38,856 nucleotides of DNA from a virus. The notes beneath the pieces were generated by a model that saw only the letters and a program-made list of their open reading frames with translations, did no database searches and was not told where the DNA came from. A program made the position numbers and the translations under genes. Positions 3,227-38,129 of the stretch are shown one piece after another. The stretch lies in the IMG/VR virus record IMGVR_UViG_3300042691_021097, positions 1 to 38,856 of that record; one strand, given 5' to 3'. Positions within the stretch are counted from its first letter, which is position 1, and each line of letters begins with the position of its first letter.

Positions 3227-4110
3227 AATAGCCTCCTCACGCTATCTTTTGGCATTTTCAGGATCACCGCTTTCTGATCCATCAGTCCATAGCTGAAAAG
3301 GACATTTTCCCCGTCAAATGCAAGCCCAGAACAAAATTCGATGCGCTCATCCTCAAAAGAAAACTTGCGCCCCATGCGTACAGGACGCATTTCGCTGTCA
3401 AACTGAATGAGATGATGCCGGTAGAAGTGCAGCCGCTTTTTCTGGTCTATCGTCTTACGATGCACAACCGCCAGGTAGCCGTCCTCATACGGCATGACGC
3501 AGGACGAACCAGACAATCCATCAGGCCAGTTATCGGTCTCGCCCGTCTTCAGCACCCGCACAAGCTCTTCGCCATGCAGGCGGTACAACTCAAACGGCGA
3601 CGTGTGATAAACGAAATACAGCCCGTCATCGCGAACGAGCGGCATCCAGTTCTTTTCAATCGTCGCGTTCTTTGGCGACTTAATGAAGACTGGATCGCGC
3701 AACTTGCGACCATCCACCTTGCACAACACCATCGTGTTTTTGGGCGTCGGCGTGTAGTGCAGCGCAGAAGCTAGTACGTAGTCCTCGCCGTCGTACTCAA
3801 ACAGGCGAAGATCCTCTAGGCCGTCCAAAGCGCGTGGATCTGAACGAATATGCCGGTCCTCCAGGAACCAGTAATCCGTCACCTCAAGATGCTTGTTGAT
3901 GATCGCCAGATAGTTCTGGCTGTCAGGCGTCACTGAAGGCGCGGAACCAATCGTGAAATGATACCCGCGCTTCAGATCGTAATTGCAGCCCCTGACCGTC
4001 GCGTAATAGAACCCGTCTCGCACAACAACGGACGGATTGCAGGGGCGATATTGCGTCAGCGGAGGTATCTCCACCCGCGAAAATGCAATATCAACCTGCG
4101 TCAGGATCAT
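3223..4110 (-). CDS. Five-bladed beta-propeller, glycosidase/phosphorylase-like (GH130-related)
   Basis: A 295-aa protein with the repeat logic of the GH43/GH130 five-bladed propeller fold: N-P-S-V-V-V-R-D-G near the start, G-L-E-D-L-R-L-F-E-Y-D-G in the middle, E-K-N-W-M-P-L, S-G-S-S-C-V-M-P-Y-E-D-G-Y-L, and E-R-I-E-F-C-S-G-L-A-F near the end. Similar proteins are often encoded next to glycosyltransferases. I infer a role on surface sugars, either cleavage, phosphorolysis or only binding. The start at 4110 overlaps the previous stop as ATGA; an upstream in-frame ATG would lie deep in the previous gene. The product overlaps the glycosyltransferase start, so the two are probably translated together. 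Confidence 0.65.
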   Translation of the reverse strand: MILTQVDIAFSRVEIPPLTQYRPCNPSVVVRDGFYYATVRGCNYDLKRGYHFTIGSAPSVTPDSQNYLAIINKHLEVTDYWFLEDRHIRSDPRALDGLEDLRLFEYDGEDYVLASALHYTPTPKNTMVLCKVDGRKLRDPVFIKSPKNATIEKNWMPLVRDDGLYFVYHTSPFELYRLHGEELVRVLKTGETDNWPDGLSGSSCVMPYEDGYLAVVHRKTIDQKKRLHFYRHHLIQFDSEMRPVRMGRKFSFEDERIEFCSGLAFDGENVLFSYGLMDQKAVILKMPKDSVRRLF

Positions 4111-18288: not shown

Positions 18289-19728
18289 TTAAGTACGCTT
18301 TTCGGGGTGGATGTATTCCGACTGCGCGTCGCCAATTCTCCATGCCTGCGCAGCCAGAGCAGTGTTAATCGGCAATCCGTCGATGTCGCTTTCGTATGGA
18401 ACGCCCTCAACGATAATGCCGTTTCTTGGGCAACGAGCCTTCAGAAAGCGGCCAGGATTATTTAGACCCGGCAGCTTCAGTTCAATCAGTTGCCCTATGT
18501 CTTCGTTGCCGCTGTCGTTAATCACTGTGACCTTGAGTACGTCGAGCATCTTTGGCCAGCCAACAATCTCAGCCCCGGCAGCGCGCTGTTCGACGTTCTC
18601 GCACTTGATGACTTCGTTCGGGTCTAAGTTGGCGCGATCCTCAATCCAGTGCGCAGGCACTTTTACGCCGTGCCAATGATATAGCGACCAACCGTCTCTC
18701 CAACGATGGGATGGGCCATTTTCGCAGTGCGGTCGGTTTTGCTCATCAACCAAAATGCGCTCAGGAAAATCGCTGACGATGCAGAAATCTTCGTGCATCA
18801 CGCGAAACCCGCCGTGAATAGTTGCTTGTTCCCAAAAACGGTATTTTGCATGTTCTGGCAGATCAAGACCTAAAATATCTCGGAGTGCTGTCAGATAGCA
18901 ATCGAAAGCTGACCACATGTTTCCGCCTTGATACGATTTAGACCATAATTTCGCACACTCAATGCCCAAATTACCTGCCAACTCAAAACAAGCTTCAGCA
19001 GCGTCGGTCGCATCGCGAGTCGCATCGTAGGTCGCATCATAGGTCGCAGCGACAGTCGCAGCAGCGGTCGCAGCAGCGGTCGCAGCGTAGGTCGCATCGC
19101 GAGTCGCATCGCGGGTCGCAACGCGGGTCGCATCGCGAGTCGCAGCAGCGGTCGCATCGTAGGTCGCATCGCGAGTCGCATCGCGGGTCGCATCGTAGGT
19201 CGCATCGCGAGTCGCAGCAGCGGTCGCATCGTAGGTCGCATCGTAGGTCGCATCGTAGGTCGCAGCGTAGGTCGCATCGTAGGTCGCAGCGTCAGTCGCA
19301 GCAGCGGTCGCATCGTAGGTCGCAGCAGCGGTCGCAGCGTAGGTCGCATCGTAGGTCGCATCATAGGTCGCAGCGTCAGTCGCAGCGTCAGTCGCAGCAG
19401 CGGTCGCAACGCGGGTCGCATCGCGAGTCGCAGCAGCGGTCGCATCGTAGGTCGCAGTGCTTACGTTTTTCAATCTGTATAAGATCGCAGCCGATGCACC
19501 ATATGAGAACGCCATAACATGCGGCGACGGCACGATAACAACACGGGGCTTTTTCAATCCAGCCGCTTCGTAAAGGCCCTCAATAGCAGGGATGATCTTC
19601 TCCGGCTCAATGGGGTCTGTGCGAAATGCGCGCTTGATCCACATCTGCACATGTTCATCCATGCGCGCCTTTTCTTCGGCAGTTATGCCGCCCTTCGCCT
19701 CTCTCTTGGTACGAATGATCTTGCCCAT
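18289..19728 (-). CDS. DUF6745 protein with 38 Ala-Thr-x-x tetrapeptide repeats
   Basis: A 479-aa protein. Residues 1-91 are a conserved start (A-F-R-T-D-P-I-E-P-E-K, Y-E-A-A-G-L-K-K-P). Residues 92-243 are 38 tandem tetrapeptides of form A-T-[YARDV]-[DAV]. Residues 244-479 are the DUF6745 core, including E-D-F-C-I-V-S-D-F-P-E-R and C-E-N-G-P-S-H-R-W-R-D-G-W-S-L-Y. Other family members have, to my recollection, other repetitive inserts here (for example V-R-D-Q-type repeats), so a repeat insert at this point seems to be a tolerated feature. ATG at 19728 has GAGG 6 nt upstream. Function unknown. Confidence 0.8.
   Translation of the reverse strand: MGKIIRTKREAKGGITAEEKARMDEHVQMWIKRAFRTDPIEPEKIIPAIEGLYEAAGLKKPRVVIVPSPHVMAFSYGASAAILYRLKNVSTATYDATAAATRDATRVATAAATDAATDAATYDATYDATYAATAAATYDATAAATDAATYDATYAATYDATYDATYDATAAATRDATYDATRDATRDATYDATAAATRDATRVATRDATRDATYAATAAATAAATVAATYDATYDATRDATDAAEACFELAGNLGIECAKLWSKSYQGGNMWSAFDCYLTALRDILGLDLPEHAKYRFWEQATIHGGFRVMHEDFCIVSDFPERILVDEQNRPHCENGPSHRWRDGWSLYHWHGVKVPAHWIEDRANLDPNEVIKCENVEQRAAGAEIVGWPKMLDVLKVTVINDSGNEDIGQLIELKLPGLNNPGRFLKARCPRNGIIVEGVPYESDIDGLPINTALAAQAWRIGDAQSEYIHPEKRT
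19000..19455 (-). repeat. 38-copy 12-nt tandem repeat within DUF6745 gene
   Basis: 456 nt made of exactly 38 units of 12 nt, all in register. Each unit reads GCGACY-NNN-GNT on the coding strand; the first two codons (Ala-Thr) are nearly fixed and the last two vary among seven pairs (Tyr-Asp, Ala-Ala, Arg-Asp, Arg-Val, Asp-Ala, Tyr-Ala, Val-Ala). No unit carries a stop or frameshift. Confidence 0.95.
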
Positions 19729-19729
19729 A

Positions 19730-20053
19730 TCACGCCTCATCGTTCAGGCGATTAATCATCCCGGCCATCTCCTGCGTCGTCGGGATGTCCCTCTGAGCGC
19801 CAGAAAGCAGCAGCGCAAACGCTCGGTAATTAATTCCGTCGATGTGGCTGTCGTAATGCTCAGGAGCTACAGCACGACGCGCGTCCTTGACGGACTCAAG
19901 GATGATCGCGACTTCGTATGGCGAAATATGTTTGTTTAGCTTCAGGCTGGAGATCTTCGCAGCGCGGTCGAAGTTCTGCTCGATGCCGCCATAGTTGACG
20001 CCACGATCATCGATGAGGTTGATTGCTTCATTGAGAATTAGCTTCGGGCCCAT
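19730..20053 (-). CDS. DUF6378-like protein
   Basis: A 107-aa helical protein matching, from memory, the DUF6378 pattern: D-R-G-V-N-Y-G-G-I-E-Q-N-F-D-R-A-A-K-I, I-S-P-Y-E-V-A-I-I-L-E-S-V-K-D-A-R, and H-Y-D-S-H-I-D-G-I-N-Y-R-A-F-A-L-L-L. This family resembles the MazG-type nucleotide-processing fold in its E/D helices, but activity is unproven. AAGGTG lies 6 nt before the ATG; the start overlaps the upstream gene by 16 nt. Confidence 0.7.
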   Translation of the reverse strand: MGPKLILNEAINLIDDRGVNYGGIEQNFDRAAKISSLKLNKHISPYEVAIILESVKDARRAVAPEHYDSHIDGINYRAFALLLSGAQRDIPTTQEMAGMINRLNDEA

Positions 20054-21193: not shown

Positions 21194-21471
21194 CAGAACT
21201 GCTCCTTGGCGCGAGCCATTGCTGCTTCTCCAAGCGGCGTGTCTGCGAGCATCCCGAGAGCAGCCATGTAGCTCTGAAGCAGATCCTCCTCGCGCTCGCG
21301 CTCTTCAGCGTCCTTCTTCCGCATGGCGATGATCTTCTTGATGATCTTCGGATCGAAGCCGTTGCTTTTCGCTTCGGAGTAAATCTCCTTCACATCCGCA
21401 GCGAGCAGCGCTCGATCATCCTCGATCTTCTCAATGCGTTCTACGATTGAAACAAGCTGATTGTTGGTCAT
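21193..21471 (-). CDS. GapR-like (DUF2312) DNA-binding protein
   Basis: A 92-aa protein with the GapR pattern: R-I-E-K-I-E-D-D-R-A-L-L-A-A-D-V-K-E-I-Y-S-E-A-K, N-G-F-D-P-K-I-I-K-K-I-I-A-M-R-K and E-E-D-L-L-Q-S-Y-M-A-A-L-G-M-L-A. In Caulobacter GapR binds overtwisted DNA ahead of replication and supports gyrase. A phage copy may substitute for, or compete with, the host protein. ATG at 21471 overlaps the preceding stop as ATGA and has AGGA 8 nt upstream. Confidence 0.85.
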   Translation of the reverse strand: MTNNQLVSIVERIEKIEDDRALLAADVKEIYSEAKSNGFDPKIIKKIIAMRKKDAEEREREEDLLQSYMAALGMLADTPLGEAAMARAKEQF

Positions 21472-21740
21472 TTTGCTTTCCTCATCATGCGAGCAACTGA
21501 ACACAAGCCTAAACGATTGCTGATTGTGCCGTTTCCGTATCCGTATCCGTCGCCGTAGCCATCGCCGAAGCCGGAGCCGTAGCCGTCGCCGTAGCCGGAG
21601 CCGGAGTCGTCGCCGTAGCCGTCGCCGTCGCCGTATCCGTAGCCGTCGCCGTATCCGTAGCCGTCGCCGTATCCGTAGCCGTCTCCGAAGCCGGAGCCGT
21701 AGCCGTAGCCGGAGCCTACTGGCTTAACGTCTCCGCTCAT
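21468..21740 (-). CDS. Gly-x dipeptide repeat protein
   Basis: A 90-aa protein. Residues 9-71 are almost entirely Gly-x dipeptides, where x is Tyr, Asp, Ser, Phe or Asn; there is one D-S break in 31 units. The ends are ordinary: M-S-G-D-V-K-P-V and a basic C-terminal T-I-S-N-R-L-G-L-C-S. Glycine/tyrosine repeats of this type often form disordered, phase-separating or adhesive segments. ATG overlaps the previous stop as TGATG, with only a weak GGGGG site. Its downstream partner is the GapR-like gene. Confidence 0.8.
   Translation of the reverse strand: MSGDVKPVGSGYGYGSGFGDGYGYGDGYGYGDGYGYGDGDGYGDDSGSGYGDGYGSGFGDGYGDGYGYGNGTISNRLGLCSVARMMRKAK
21528..21716 (-). repeat. Hexanucleotide-based repeat in Gly-x gene
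   Basis: About 31 six-base units encoding Gly-x. The variable codon changes mainly at its first two bases (TAC, GAC, TCC, TTC, AAC), so nearly every change alters the amino acid while the glycine codon stays. The register is unbroken. Confidence 0.9.
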
Positions 21741-22515: not shown

Positions 22516-23424
22516 ATGTTGCATGAGCGATTTGCGGACTGGATCGAGGAACGTCGCGGGCTCGGCCTGATCTCAGAGACAACGGCCAGAAACTACAGGG
22601 ATTTTTGCTGCGGCCTCTTCGCCCTGCATGGGAAGTTGCCCATCTGCGATGTGAAGCCTCAACACATTACGTCTTGGTACATTGCCCGTCTGCGGACGTG
22701 TTCGGCGTCCACGGTTCGCGTCGCTCACCAGATCCTCTGCGGCTTCTTCTCCTGGGCGGTCGAACAGGGCGACATTCCTGCATCGCCCATGCTCAAAGTC
22801 AAACCGCCCCGCAAGGAGAAGACGGATCGGAAGGCGCTGACGGATGACCAGATCCGGGCGCTTCTGGATTACGTTGAGGACAAGCCGCTGGTCGGGCTTG
22901 CCGTCAGGATCGCGATTGCAACCGGTCTGCGCCGGGGAGAGATCGCTGCGCTGACTTGGGGAGATGTGGACTTATCCACAGGTAAACTTTTCGTTACCAA
23001 GGGAATTGTGCGGATCGGCGGGGTTGAGCGTATTTCCAAACCGAAAACAGCGTCGGCTGTGCGTGTCGTGTCGTTGCCTGCTAGTCTTTTGGAGGAGCTT
23101 AGGGCAATATCACGAGGCCCGTCTGAGCCTATTCTCCTCTCGGCACAGGGCGGGCGTCCCTCTCTCGCGCACCTTTCTCGCTCCGTAGGTGCTGCGATGG
23201 CAGCGGTCGGGCTGGGTGACGGGTATTGCTTACACTCAGCCCGACATGCGCACGCGACGACGCTGCTGCGGAAGAAGATGCCGGTGAAAGCAGTCTCGCA
23301 GCGCCTCGGCCATTCCGACGTGACCACGACGCTGCGGACCTATGCCCACGTCTTCGAAGCAGACGACGCGGAGCTGGCGGAAGCGATGGATCTGGTTATC
23401 TGCGACCCAACGCTTCCGGCCTGA
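22516..23424 (+). CDS. int: Tyrosine recombinase integrase
   Basis: A 302-aa phage-type integrase. The N-terminal SAM-like core-binding domain covers about residues 1-95; the catalytic domain carries R139 in T-G-L-R-R-G-E-I, K177 in S-K-P-K-T-A-S, H240 and R243 in H-S-A-R-H-A-H-A, H266 in L-G-H-S-D-V-T-T-T and the nucleophile Y276 in T-Y-A-H-V. All six catalytic residues are present. It makes the phage temperate. GGAG lies 8 nt before the ATG. It points opposite to the early operon and overlaps the last ejection gene tail to tail by 29 nt, leaving no room for attP downstream. Confidence 0.93.
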   Translation: MLHERFADWIEERRGLGLISETTARNYRDFCCGLFALHGKLPICDVKPQHITSWYIARLRTCSASTVRVAHQILCGFFSWAVEQGDIPASPMLKVKPPRKEKTDRKALTDDQIRALLDYVEDKPLVGLAVRIAIATGLRRGEIAALTWGDVDLSTGKLFVTKGIVRIGGVERISKPKTASAVRVVSLPASLLEELRAISRGPSEPILLSAQGGRPSLAHLSRSVGAAMAAVGLGDGYCLHSARHAHATTLLRKKMPVKAVSQRLGHSDVTTTLRTYAHVFEADDAELAEAMDLVICDPTLPA

Positions 23425-35297: not shown

Positions 35298-35629
35298 CAG
35301 CTTGCCACCCAGTGCGTTCGGAAGGGCCTTGCTTCGTCGCTCTGGAGCCAACGACGCAGGGCAGCCTTATCGCCCAAAATCCCACGTTTTCTGAGATCAA
35401 GATACACCATCATGGGCAAGGACGCCACTTTGACGCCAACCCCATCCGGCAGCGCCTCCGTGCGCGAAACCTCGTTCCTGATCGCCTGATTGTACTCCCC
35501 AAGACCCTGCACATCGACCGTCTGCTCGAAGACGAGCTTCTGGTCCGTGGTCACGTGCATCTTCTCAATCGTGCCGGTCAGGGCGTCTCGGTCCAGGACA
35601 AACGAGCCCGGAAGGTATTCTTCAGGCAT
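35297..35629 (-). CDS. Conserved virion-region protein
   Basis: A 110-aa protein: F-V-L-D-R-D-A-L-T-G, K-L-V-F-E-Q-T-V-D-V, N-Q-A-I-R-N-E-V-S, then G-I-L-G-D-K-A-A-L-R-R-W-L. I recall this pattern between capsid and adaptor genes of podoviruses; the function is unknown, though a head-completion role is plausible from position. GAGG lies 7-8 nt upstream of ATG at 35629. Confidence 0.7.
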   Translation of the reverse strand: MPEEYLPGSFVLDRDALTGTIEKMHVTTDQKLVFEQTVDVQGLGEYNQAIRNEVSRTEALPDGVGVKVASLPMMVYLDLRKRGILGDKAALRRWLQSDEARPFRTHWVAS

Positions 35630-36095
35630 GCTTCCACCTCTTGCCCGAGCGAATTTCGGAGATGATACCCGGCGTAACGCCAAACCGATCTGCCAAATCT
35701 ATACCCTTCTCCGAAGATGATTTGATGTATGCGGCATCTTCTTCTGTCAATTTAGCATTGTATCGATCTGATCCCTTTTCAGGATTTATCGCCCCATTAG
35801 CCCTAAACCGACCTCTGTCTATGCAGTCCTTCATGTTCTGCAACTGAGTGCCTGGATAGAGATGATCTGGATTTACGCAGAGAGGGTTATCGCACTTGTG
35901 AAGTGCTTGCAGATCACCCAAATCACCATGCACGCTCTCGCAAGATATGCGATGCGCATATACGTTTTTTCGGTTTATTTTAAACTGAGGGTATCGTCCA
36001 TTTGTGAAACCAAGCCAGAGCCAGCACCCGCTGTTAGGCTCAGGAATGCTCAGATTTATAACCCGCTGCATCGGGGGTAGATTGTGCTGTCTCAT
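35622..36095 (-). CDS. Free-standing HNH endonuclease with C-terminal HTH
   Basis: A 157-aa HNH_3-type homing endonuclease: G-C-W-L-W-L-G (23-29), Y-A-H-R-I-S (46-51), and the catalytic unit L-H-K-C-D-N-P-L-C-V-N-P-D-H-L (65-79), followed by a DNA-binding segment with L-T-E-E-D-A-A-Y-I and G-V-T-P-G-I-I-S-E-I-R-S-G. It is unrelated in detail to the intron-encoded HNH upstream. AGGAG lies 5 nt before the ATG, directly after the capsid terminator, as expected for a recently inserted mobile gene. It overlaps the next gene by 8 nt. Confidence 0.85.
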   Translation of the reverse strand: MRQHNLPPMQRVINLSIPEPNSGCWLWLGFTNGRYPQFKINRKNVYAHRISCESVHGDLGDLQALHKCDNPLCVNPDHLYPGTQLQNMKDCIDRGRFRANGAINPEKGSDRYNAKLTEEDAAYIKSSSEKGIDLADRFGVTPGIISEIRSGKRWKHA

Positions 36096-36143: not shown

Positions 36144-37061
36144 TCACGAAGCGATGAGGTTACAAATCACAGCGTGTGCTTTCTCGCTACGGACCCTCAA
36201 GCCATATTCGACCACCATTTCCTTCTTGTCCGAGTCGCCGGTCTTGGCGATGTCGAACGTGCGGAAGGGACGGAGGTACGAAACCGACGCATATTCCGGG
36301 TCCAGCACGAAGGCGAAGTTGCCGGGCTGGAAGCGGTTCGGGACGATGGACACCTCACCGAAGTCGCCAAGGTAGATGTCAGCCGTCGCGATGATCTTCA
36401 TCGGCTGCGCCTTGGTGTAGTTAATGCGCTGCTCAGCAAGACCGGAGAAGGCCGAAGCCACCGTCTTGTTGTACGCATTCACCATGAGGATCTTCGGGTC
36501 GCCGCCCTGTTCCCAGACCTGCTGAATAGCCGTCTTCAGCATCGTCTCGGTGAAAGCAACGTCAGTCGCCGTCGAGAGGTTCGTCCACGCGGTGTCCGGG
36601 TAGCCGTTGCCGCTCGCTCCCGACATCGCAGAAACGGTCGCGCCGTTCGCCTGCGAGTTCGTGATGAGCCACGTCGGGAGACCAGCGGTCTTACGCGCAG
36701 TCGTCGTGCCAGCGCCAGCGTTGCCAGCCTGGTTCGACGTAAGGATGGCCTCCATGTCGCGCTTCAGCTCCTTAGCCTTCTTCGCGGTCTGGTAAGCCAT
36801 GACGGTGCGCATACCGGCGTTGTTCGTCGAGTCGGCGGTGCCCGAGACCGAGATCACCTTCGTGGAGATCTGGGTGTAGTTGGCGACGCGAACCGTCGGA
36901 TCAAAGTCGGCGTTGCCTGCGTCCGCACCTTCAATCGCCGCGTTGGCGGTGTTGGCGTTAGCAAGCGCGTCCGTCTGCCACTCGAAGTACGTGTTGGACG
37001 CGCTGTCGCGGCCAATGTTGGACATGAAGGGCGTGTCAACTGGACTGATATCGTAGATCAC
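36144..37061 (-). CDS. Major capsid protein, exon 2
   Basis: The 305 C-terminal residues of the SU10/DUF5309-type major capsid protein, opening V-I-Y-D-I-S-P-V-D-T-P-F-M-S-N-I-G-R, a segment that in intact relatives directly follows a short N-terminal arm. Later motifs include F-E-W-Q-T-D, A-I-E-G-A-D-A and L-R-P-F-R-T-F-D-I-A-K. The reading frame stays open for another 198 nt upstream (to 37259), but that part is intron and contains group I core elements, not capsid sequence. Joined to exon 1 (38064-38129) it gives 327 aa, the usual length of the family. Confidence 0.9.
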   Translation of the reverse strand: MIYDISPVDTPFMSNIGRDSASNTYFEWQTDALANANTANAAIEGADAGNADFDPTVRVANYTQISTKVISVSGTADSTNNAGMRTVMAYQTAKKAKELKRDMEAILTSNQAGNAGAGTTTARKTAGLPTWLITNSQANGATVSAMSGASGNGYPDTAWTNLSTATDVAFTETMLKTAIQQVWEQGGDPKILMVNAYNKTVASAFSGLAEQRINYTKAQPMKIIATADIYLGDFGEVSIVPNRFQPGNFAFVLDPEYASVSYLRPFRTFDIAKTGDSDKKEMVVEYGLRVRSEKAHAVICNLIAS

Positions 37062-38063
37062 CGTTTTGTTAACGTAACGCATTTTATTCGTTACATCTCG
37101 CCGTTTCCGACGAGTCCAGACTATATCATCCCTTTTAATCGGGCCGGGCGCTCGTGGGCGGATTATTCTTTCGTCACCGCCTAGTCGTTGAACCTTCATC
37201 CACCCTGGGGCTAACGCCTTACGTTGGATGCTTGGCTGCTGATTGCCCAATCCATACATTTTCAGGCCCTCACGTTTGCCGTTACCGGCTGCGTTGTGGC
37301 TGTATGGCTCTCAGGGGGTTCCAGCAATTCACCCGGTTTTCCATGATGTGACTTCCAGTGGCATTGACCACAGAGAGACACGCCGTTTGATACTTCGTAA
37401 CGAAGATCCGGCGCTTCTGAAAAAGGAACAACATGGTGCGCGTGAAGAATCGTCTTAGCGCCGCAGCAATGGCAAATCTTGCCCTGCTCAACGCCGCATT
37501 CAACACATTTAAACCCGTCCCGCTGAAGGACAGATAATTTCCATGTTCTGTTAGCCATGCTCGTGCGCGCAAGCTTATCTTTGGAAGAAATGCCGCCCTT
37601 CCAATTATTAGCGAGCTCACCAGTGCGGAGCGTCAAGGCCTGAGCGATCTTGGCGTTATGCTCTGGTGTACGAACATGCCTCTTGAGACGTTCAGAGCGA
37701 GATGGCCCCTCAATCCCAAGCTGCTTCAATCGAGTAAACACAACAGTTTCGCCTACGCCATATTTTTCAGCGATCTTAGCCATACTCATTTCCGAAACCG
37801 CTTGCTCTAGCTCCTCGCGCGGAGGATTAAAGCTCTTTTTCGGGCCCGGAGGGTGGCTGCCTCGCTGTATGCCGTAAGTCCTCATGCGATAATACACAGC
37901 GCCAGCCGTCACCCCATACATGGAGGCGATTGCCGTTGCTGGATATTGCTGCACGAGCTGTTGCATCTTTTCCCGATCTATCCTTTTCCAGTCTTTCATG
38001 AGTCCCTGCCAGGCCGTTCACATCAAGCGAACTATGACCTAACTGAGAACAGCTAAGTTGTCA
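37062..38063 (-). ncRNA. Group I self-splicing intron in major capsid gene
   Basis: A 1,002-nt intron. P1 is formed by the exon end GCGAAU (38069-38064) and the guide GUUCGC (38032-38027), with the conserved U-G pair at the splice site. P10 pairs the next exon start GUGAUC with GGUCAU (38039-38034). The core shows ATTGGGCAATCAGCAGCC (37252-37235, P/Q), TTCAACGACTA (R) with GACTA (37186-37182) pairing TAGTC (37123-37119) in P7, and GATATAGTC (S). P9 is CUCGUCG-GAAA-CGGCGAG (37114-37097), followed by a GTAACG/CGTTAC stem. The intron ends in G at 37062. The HNH gene occupies 37262-37999. Confidence 0.93.
37262..37999 (-). CDS. Intron-encoded HNH homing endonuclease
   Basis: A 245-aa protein. 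Two helix-turn-helix-like segments come first (A-S-M-Y-G-V-T-A-G-A-V-Y-Y-R and I-A-E-K-Y-G-V-G-E-T-V), then a NUMOD3-like stretch (T-P-E-H-N-A-K-I-A-Q-A-L and N-N-W-K-G-G). The HNH domain spans about 155-220: C-V-E-C and C-H-C-C zinc ligands, H186-A-H188-H189, N205, and C-G-Q-C-H-W-K-S-H-H. It should cut intron-less capsid genes and spread the intron. AGGGA lies 5 nt upstream. It ends just before the P/Q core. Confidence 0.9.
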   Translation of the reverse strand: MKDWKRIDREKMQQLVQQYPATAIASMYGVTAGAVYYRMRTYGIQRGSHPPGPKKSFNPPREELEQAVSEMSMAKIAEKYGVGETVVFTRLKQLGIEGPSRSERLKRHVRTPEHNAKIAQALTLRTGELANNWKGGISSKDKLARTSMANRTWKLSVLQRDGFKCVECGVEQGKICHCCGAKTILHAHHVVPFSEAPDLRYEVSNGVSLCGQCHWKSHHGKPGELLEPPESHTATTQPVTANVRA

Positions 38064-38129
38064 ATTCGCGAGGTCTTCGCGGATGGCGTTGACCGAGTCG
38101 TAGGTCGTAACTTTGGATACAGATGCCAT
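38064..38129 (-). CDS. Major capsid protein, exon 1
   Basis: The first 22 codons of the capsid protein, from M-A-S-V-S-K-V-T-T-Y to A-I-R-E-D-L-A-N, then a TGA at the start of the intron. The sequence R-E-D-L-A-N followed after splicing by V-I-Y-D-I-S-P matches intact SU10-type capsid proteins (R-E-[DN]-L-[SA]-[DN]-x-I-Y-D-I-S-P). GAGG lies 9 nt before the ATG, and the scaffold stop lies 6 nt upstream of the ATG. Unspliced RNA would yield only this 22-aa peptide. Confidence 0.9.

Follow-up and report, generated by a model that had tools for sequence, protein, structure and literature searches.

A probable self-splicing group I intron with a putative homing HNH endonuclease gene in an SU10-type phage capsid gene, at a site also occupied in other capsid lineages

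The major capsid gene of the virus described here is interrupted by a 1002-nt insert which is very probably a self-splicing group I intron with a homing HNH protein. The window, by which we mean the whole stretch of DNA analysed, is a linear IMG/VR virus record of 38,856 bases in which profile searches identified an SU10-type portal (PF23899, E 2.1e-197), a terminase, a scaffolding protein and an SU10-type major capsid protein, and the gene for the last lies on the minus strand toward the right end of the window. We computed the identity of the intron, its junction and fold, the selection acting on its RNA and protein, its spread at the same site in other capsid genes, and the exchange of its HNH block. 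The capsid gene and the intron are arranged as follows:

38064–38129, minus strand: exon 1 of the major capsid gene, 22 codons, MASVSKVTTYDSVNAIREDLAN, ending REDLAN
37062–38063, minus strand: group I intron, 1002 nt, with an in-frame TGA after U and G as its last nucleotide
37262–37999, minus strand: intron-encoded HNH protein, 245 aa
36144–37061, minus strand: exon 2 of the major capsid gene, 305 aa, SU10_MCP, starting VIYDISP

A preliminary description had recognised a 22-codon capsid start ending REDLAN and closed by a stop, with the VIYDISP continuation 1,002 nt further on, and this arrangement was found as described. Exon 1 (38129–38064) begins with an ATG immediately preceded by the ribosome-binding-like sequence AGAGG, and the in-frame TGA directly after it is the first intron codon, while exon 2 starts at 37061 after a gap of 1002 nt. 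The intron is in phase 0 after codon 22 and ends ...AAAACG. Excision of 38063–37062 brings the exons into frame to give a 327-aa protein, with GACCTCGCGAAT joined to GTGATCTACGAT at the predicted junction, which matches the Pfam SU10_MCP profile (PF17236) with E 1.8e-96 (residues 9–324 on profile positions 8–291 of 292) and the PHROG major head protein with E 5.2e-102. We listed 80 viral contigs from IMG/VR as close relatives of exon 2, and in 79 of these the junction peptide REDLAN-VIYDISP is uninterrupted (the closest continuous relative among the matches listed, L002, is 94% identical in exon 2). This continuity confirms the single junction predicted earlier. Gene-calling programs would give a truncated or wrongly started capsid protein for this phage.

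Several other ORFs in the window were noted in passing. A 483-aa ORF at 18289–19740 contains a long run of degenerate ATYDAT/RDAT repeats, and an overlapping frame at 18891–19445 is repetitive too; a 90-aa ORF at 21468–21740 consists of nearly nothing but GYGDGYG-type repeats; and an integrase-like ORF at 22516–23424 (a tyrosine recombinase by eye) lies on the strand opposite to that of most genes, and would point to a temperate life style.

The covariance-model search for a group I core proposed in the preliminary description came out positive: a scan of the whole window with Rfam returned one RNA family, RF00028 (Intron_gpI), at 37385–37097 on the minus strand, with the full model (1–253) matched at 68 bits (gathering score 50, E 2.5e-15). 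The minimum-energy fold was computed without the ORF, with P7 then added as a pseudoknot, and contained P1 with its extension, P3, P4, P5, P6, P7.1, P8, P9 with a GAAA loop, and P9.1. The RNA elements are located as follows:

38027–38069, minus strand: P1 and a 9-bp P1 extension hairpin, exon GCGAAU with internal guide GUUCGC
38034–38041, minus strand: 5' strand of P10 (UAGGUCAU), pairing with exon 2 nt 1–8 (37061–37054, GUGAUCUA)
37097–37336, minus strand: ribozyme core P3–P9, from the Rfam match, fold and covariation
37336–37330/37150–37144, minus strand: P3
37326–37321/37242–37237, minus strand: P4
within the core at 37097–37336, minus strand: P5 and P6
37186–37182/37123–37119, minus strand: P7, GACUA/UAGUC
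37181–37177/37161–37157, minus strand: P7.1
37143–37141/37132–37130, minus strand: P8
37114–37108/37103–37097, minus strand: P9 with a GAAA loop
37072–37096, minus strand: intron element 3' of P9, with compensatory changes

The P7 and GNRA-capped P9 noted earlier could thus be located, as could both helices described at the splice sites: P1 has 6 bp (GCGAAU/GUUCGC) with U.G at the 5' splice site, and P10 has 8 bp (GUGAUCUA/UAGGUCAU) in lineage A, as we refer below to the window and its nearest intron-bearing relatives, with UAGGUCAU lying one nucleotide from the P1 strand. When the first 100 intron nucleotides were shuffled, the P1 and P10 combination was equalled in 2 of 20,000 shuffles.

Introns at the same site were sought by exact matching to a pattern in which the P7 3' strand is joined to the VIYDISP codons, which returned at least 22 viral contigs, at least 20 of them with introns at the site. 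Exon 1 could be resolved for 19, and in each of these the intron directly follows REDL[ATM][ND], is preceded by U and has G as its last nucleotide. L231 and L232 were dropped from this set as the motif in them is coding sequence in an intact capsid gene. Together with the window, the same-site introns represent at least five capsid (MCP) lineages:

Lineage A (the window, L082, L083 and L084): about 1001 nt, HNH
Lineage C: 294–321 nt, no ORF
Lineage D: 948 nt, HNH
Lineage E: 351 nt, no ORF
Lineage F: 952 nt, HNH

Capsid genes in lineages C–F are 44–56% identical to that of the window, and relatives gave RF00028 matches that exceed the gathering score, at 76.6 bits (L082), 69.3 (L083), 92.0 (L225), 79.0 (L228), 78.3 (L229) and 74.1 (L148). 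A simple search found P10 pairings of only 2–3 bp in lineages C–F. The lineage A HNH proteins share 38–41% identity with those of lineages D and F, which are 67% identical to each other. This intron was not found at this site in named phages, in which matches to intron DNA covered no more than 18% of its length and fell in ribozyme-core regions; the named phage MW202462 has a continuous lineage C capsid gene reading MATYQTYTAIGQREDLSDVIYNISPTDTPI, and the alignment skips the intron. Separately, we note that the group I core motif AAGGTKCAACGACTAG occurs in 2–3 copies per contig in L155 (3751–4845), L114 (6195–6571) and L143 (307–2199), where several introns probably lie close together, and that the lineage F contig L228 contains a Betaproteobacteria-1 RNA (RF02932, 95.8 bits) at 3540–3658, which may be a hint of the host.

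An alignment of nine distinct introns from the same capsid site allowed the fold to be assessed by covariation. Standard pairs occupy 99.6% of pair cells, and 27 of the 58 pairs have changed in a compensatory way. In 500 shuffles, neither this level of pairing nor the count of compensated pairs nor the covariation score was ever equalled, and shifting the partners by 1–3 columns reduced pairing to 31–41%. P3, P4, P5, P6, P7.1, P8, P9 and P9.1 are all maintained by compensatory changes or invariant pairs; P7 is invariant across the nine introns and hence has no covariation support of its own. The support for the fold comes from the alignment across lineages, as lineage A alone varies too little (98.6% of pairs are kept and covariation is weak, with two covarying pairs and 50 of 500 shuffles as good). 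Subgroup IA introns are characterised by one or more extra stems (P7.1/P7.2) between P7 and P3; the one covarying stem at this place, P7.1, is reminiscent of these, and the intron may tentatively be considered a candidate for the subgroup.

The same comparisons bear on whether the RNA is spliced at all. In lineage A the frame upstream of exon 2 stays open over 83 codons, and an ATG located 198 nt before exon 2 is conserved in all four introns of this lineage, so that a capsid protein of 371 aa beginning MYGLGNQQ... might be translated from the internal ATG at 37259, with 66 intron-encoded residues and exon 1 left as a dead fragment. We regard this as highly improbable, as the 11 nucleotide differences between the window and L082 in exon 1 change one amino acid, so exon 1 is under purifying selection as protein, and the N-terminus it encodes is present in almost all of the relatives listed. 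Furthermore, in lineages C, D and F no start codon lies in the stretch that separates exon 2 from the nearest in-frame stop (which in lineage F is one codon upstream of exon 2), and in L082 the 35-nt 3' tail has 11 changed positions, which are mostly non-synonymous in effect and leave most of the P9.1 pairs in place.

The group I intron interpretation of the preliminary description is supported by these results, with splicing and homing themselves being what the sequences would predict. We infer catalysis by the intron RNA and DNA cleavage by the HNH protein, and on this basis propose that guanosine would bind in P7, the 5' site would be cut immediately 3' of the U in the U.G pair of P1, and P10 would assist the joining of the exons after the terminal G to give the 327-aa capsid protein. 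In unspliced RNA, the in-frame TGA would halt ribosomes before the ribozyme is read. The HNH protein would cut intronless capsid genes at or near the conserved site, and repair of the cut gene would copy the intron in, which would constitute homing.

The HNH gene that had been reported in the gap was confirmed as an ORF at 37999–37262 with an HNH domain at residues 176–219 (Pfam PF01844, 28.2 bits against a cut-off of 21.4) and a sub-threshold Pfam helix-turn-helix match at its N-terminal start. The protein matches many PHROG HNH families, including PHROG 8446 over nearly its full length (E 6.6e-23), and a PDB sequence search with it found no relative. The ORF is not in a separate loop but spans from after P1 into P3–P5, with its final 25 or so codons running through these three elements. 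The HNH proteins of lineages D and F end ...HH-stop or ...HD-stop just 5' of P3, and at the aligned position lineage A has CAT CAT GGA where lineage D has CAT CAT TGA, so that without the TGA the lineage A ORF continues for about 25 codons into the core. In the part of the ORF which overlaps P3–P5, dS is 0.045–0.09 compared with 1.07–1.13 in the rest, a 12–25 fold lowering of synonymous change for which constraint from the ribozyme is the simplest explanation. The dN/dS of the whole ORF is about 0.12, and the intron HNH protein is under purifying selection. We also note a free-standing HNH endonuclease gene which is not part of the intron (35622–36095, minus strand; PHROG 1872, 1.6e-29) directly downstream of the capsid gene; this region is unmatched in L083, L084 and L087, and in L082 an insertion at the place of this gene includes a stretch which resembles it in part.

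Selection on the HNH protein also bears on whether the intron is mobile, since it might splice but be inherited vertically with an inactive HNH protein. The same-site introns of lineages C and E, which have no ORF, would be in keeping with this, and ORF loss is a usual end stage of homing introns. We nevertheless think immobility of the window's intron rather unlikely given the dN/dS of its HNH ORF and the incongruent histories of the intron and capsid gene, which are apparent from dS values that rank differently for the HNH and capsid sequences: L082 and L083 differ by 0.10 in HNH and 0.57 in capsid dS, and the window and L083 by 0.87 and 0.37, respectively. The exchange of the HNH block in L083 likewise argues against immobility. 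A sliding comparison found L083 to be a mosaic, 92–99% identical to L082 from about 80 to 800 nt from the start of exon 1, and 96–99% identical to the window in exon 1 and from the ribozyme core up to where exon 2 starts, which shows that the endonuclease gene was exchanged on a resident ribozyme. This exchange would fit with homing but is not proof of it.

The L083 mosaic, and the fact that lineages with closely related cores differ in whether they have an ORF, could also mean that the HNH gene is a mobile unit in its own right which has invaded a resident intron or been replaced within one, with ribozyme and endonuclease partly independent of each other. This is possible, though we are somewhat doubtful of it because the endonucleases of lineages A, D and F at this site are homologous and may therefore have mostly travelled with this type of intron; it would refine rather than exclude the interpretation of the insert as a self-splicing group I intron with a homing HNH protein.

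The one exception among the 80 relatives listed is L001, which is 96% identical. Its interruption comes 21 nt further downstream, after VIYDISP, and is a different group I intron of 933 nt (1078–2010); this intron has its own HNH ORF and matches RF00028 with E 2.4e-10 at 48.9 bits, slightly below the gathering score of 50. The same intron is present at the second site in L087 (2960–3892). Its HNH ORF of 275 aa extends over nearly all of the intron and takes in the core, and the capsid reading frame also continues open through the intron as a 596-aa ORF. A DNA pattern for the second site (ATATAGTC followed by DTPFM) matched 16 contigs, with two true introns (L249, which is L001, and L253, which is L087); 13 matches were false, as ATATAGTC encodes TYSQ in the intact capsid gene, and L254 was unrelated. 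When the DNA conservation of 30-nt windows of the capsid gene was ranked, the first site fell at the 96th percentile and the second at the 49th, so conservation alone is insufficient to account for both.

A tentative generalisation, somewhat less likely than not, is that SU10-type capsid genes have a general homing hot spot at their REDLxx-(V/I)IYDISP codons, where one site-specific family of HNH-bearing group I introns, and a different intron 21 nt away, circulate among phages with widely diverged capsid genes, compete by endonuclease swaps on resident ribozymes, and perhaps put co-infecting phages at a disadvantage through cleavage of their capsid gene. Alleles which are occupied, empty, ORF-less or endonuclease-swapped are all found at one site in an essential and presumably highly expressed gene, and this set offers a direct way of testing how introns home and exchange endonucleases in phages.

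The group I introns of phages T4, SPO1 and Twort are mostly in enzyme genes. The intron in the window is of the same ribozyme class and presumably has the same homing life style, but its host gene is structural and its ORF runs from after P1 into P3–P5. Among the mainly open-access papers searched, none described an intron in an SU10-type capsid gene, which is weak evidence of absence. Mycobacteriophage LittleE has an insert in its major capsid gene which was judged to be a group I intron with an endonuclease ORF, and its removal was demonstrated by RT-PCR and N-terminal sequencing (PMC3706429). As in the window, a U ends exon 1 and a G ends the intron, but the LittleE capsid is of the HK97 type and the insert is 819 bp with an opposite-strand ORF likened to LAGLIDADG enzymes (PMC3706429), whereas the window has an SU10-type capsid, a 1002-nt insert, a same-strand HNH ORF, and a site common to several phage lineages. 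Lactococcal phage Tuc2009, as cited in PMC3706429, similarly has a group I intron in a capsid gene, and going by that citation differs in host group. In the Bastillevirinae phages, group I introns are IA-like and mostly carry the gene for a homing nuclease (many of them classed as HNH) in a ribozyme loop, and decoupling of ribozyme and nuclease has been reported for them (PMC11878797); that text makes no mention of the word capsid, whereas here one capsid site has been repeatedly occupied. Group I introns in capsid genes are thus already known, and it is the shared capsid site which goes beyond the known cases.
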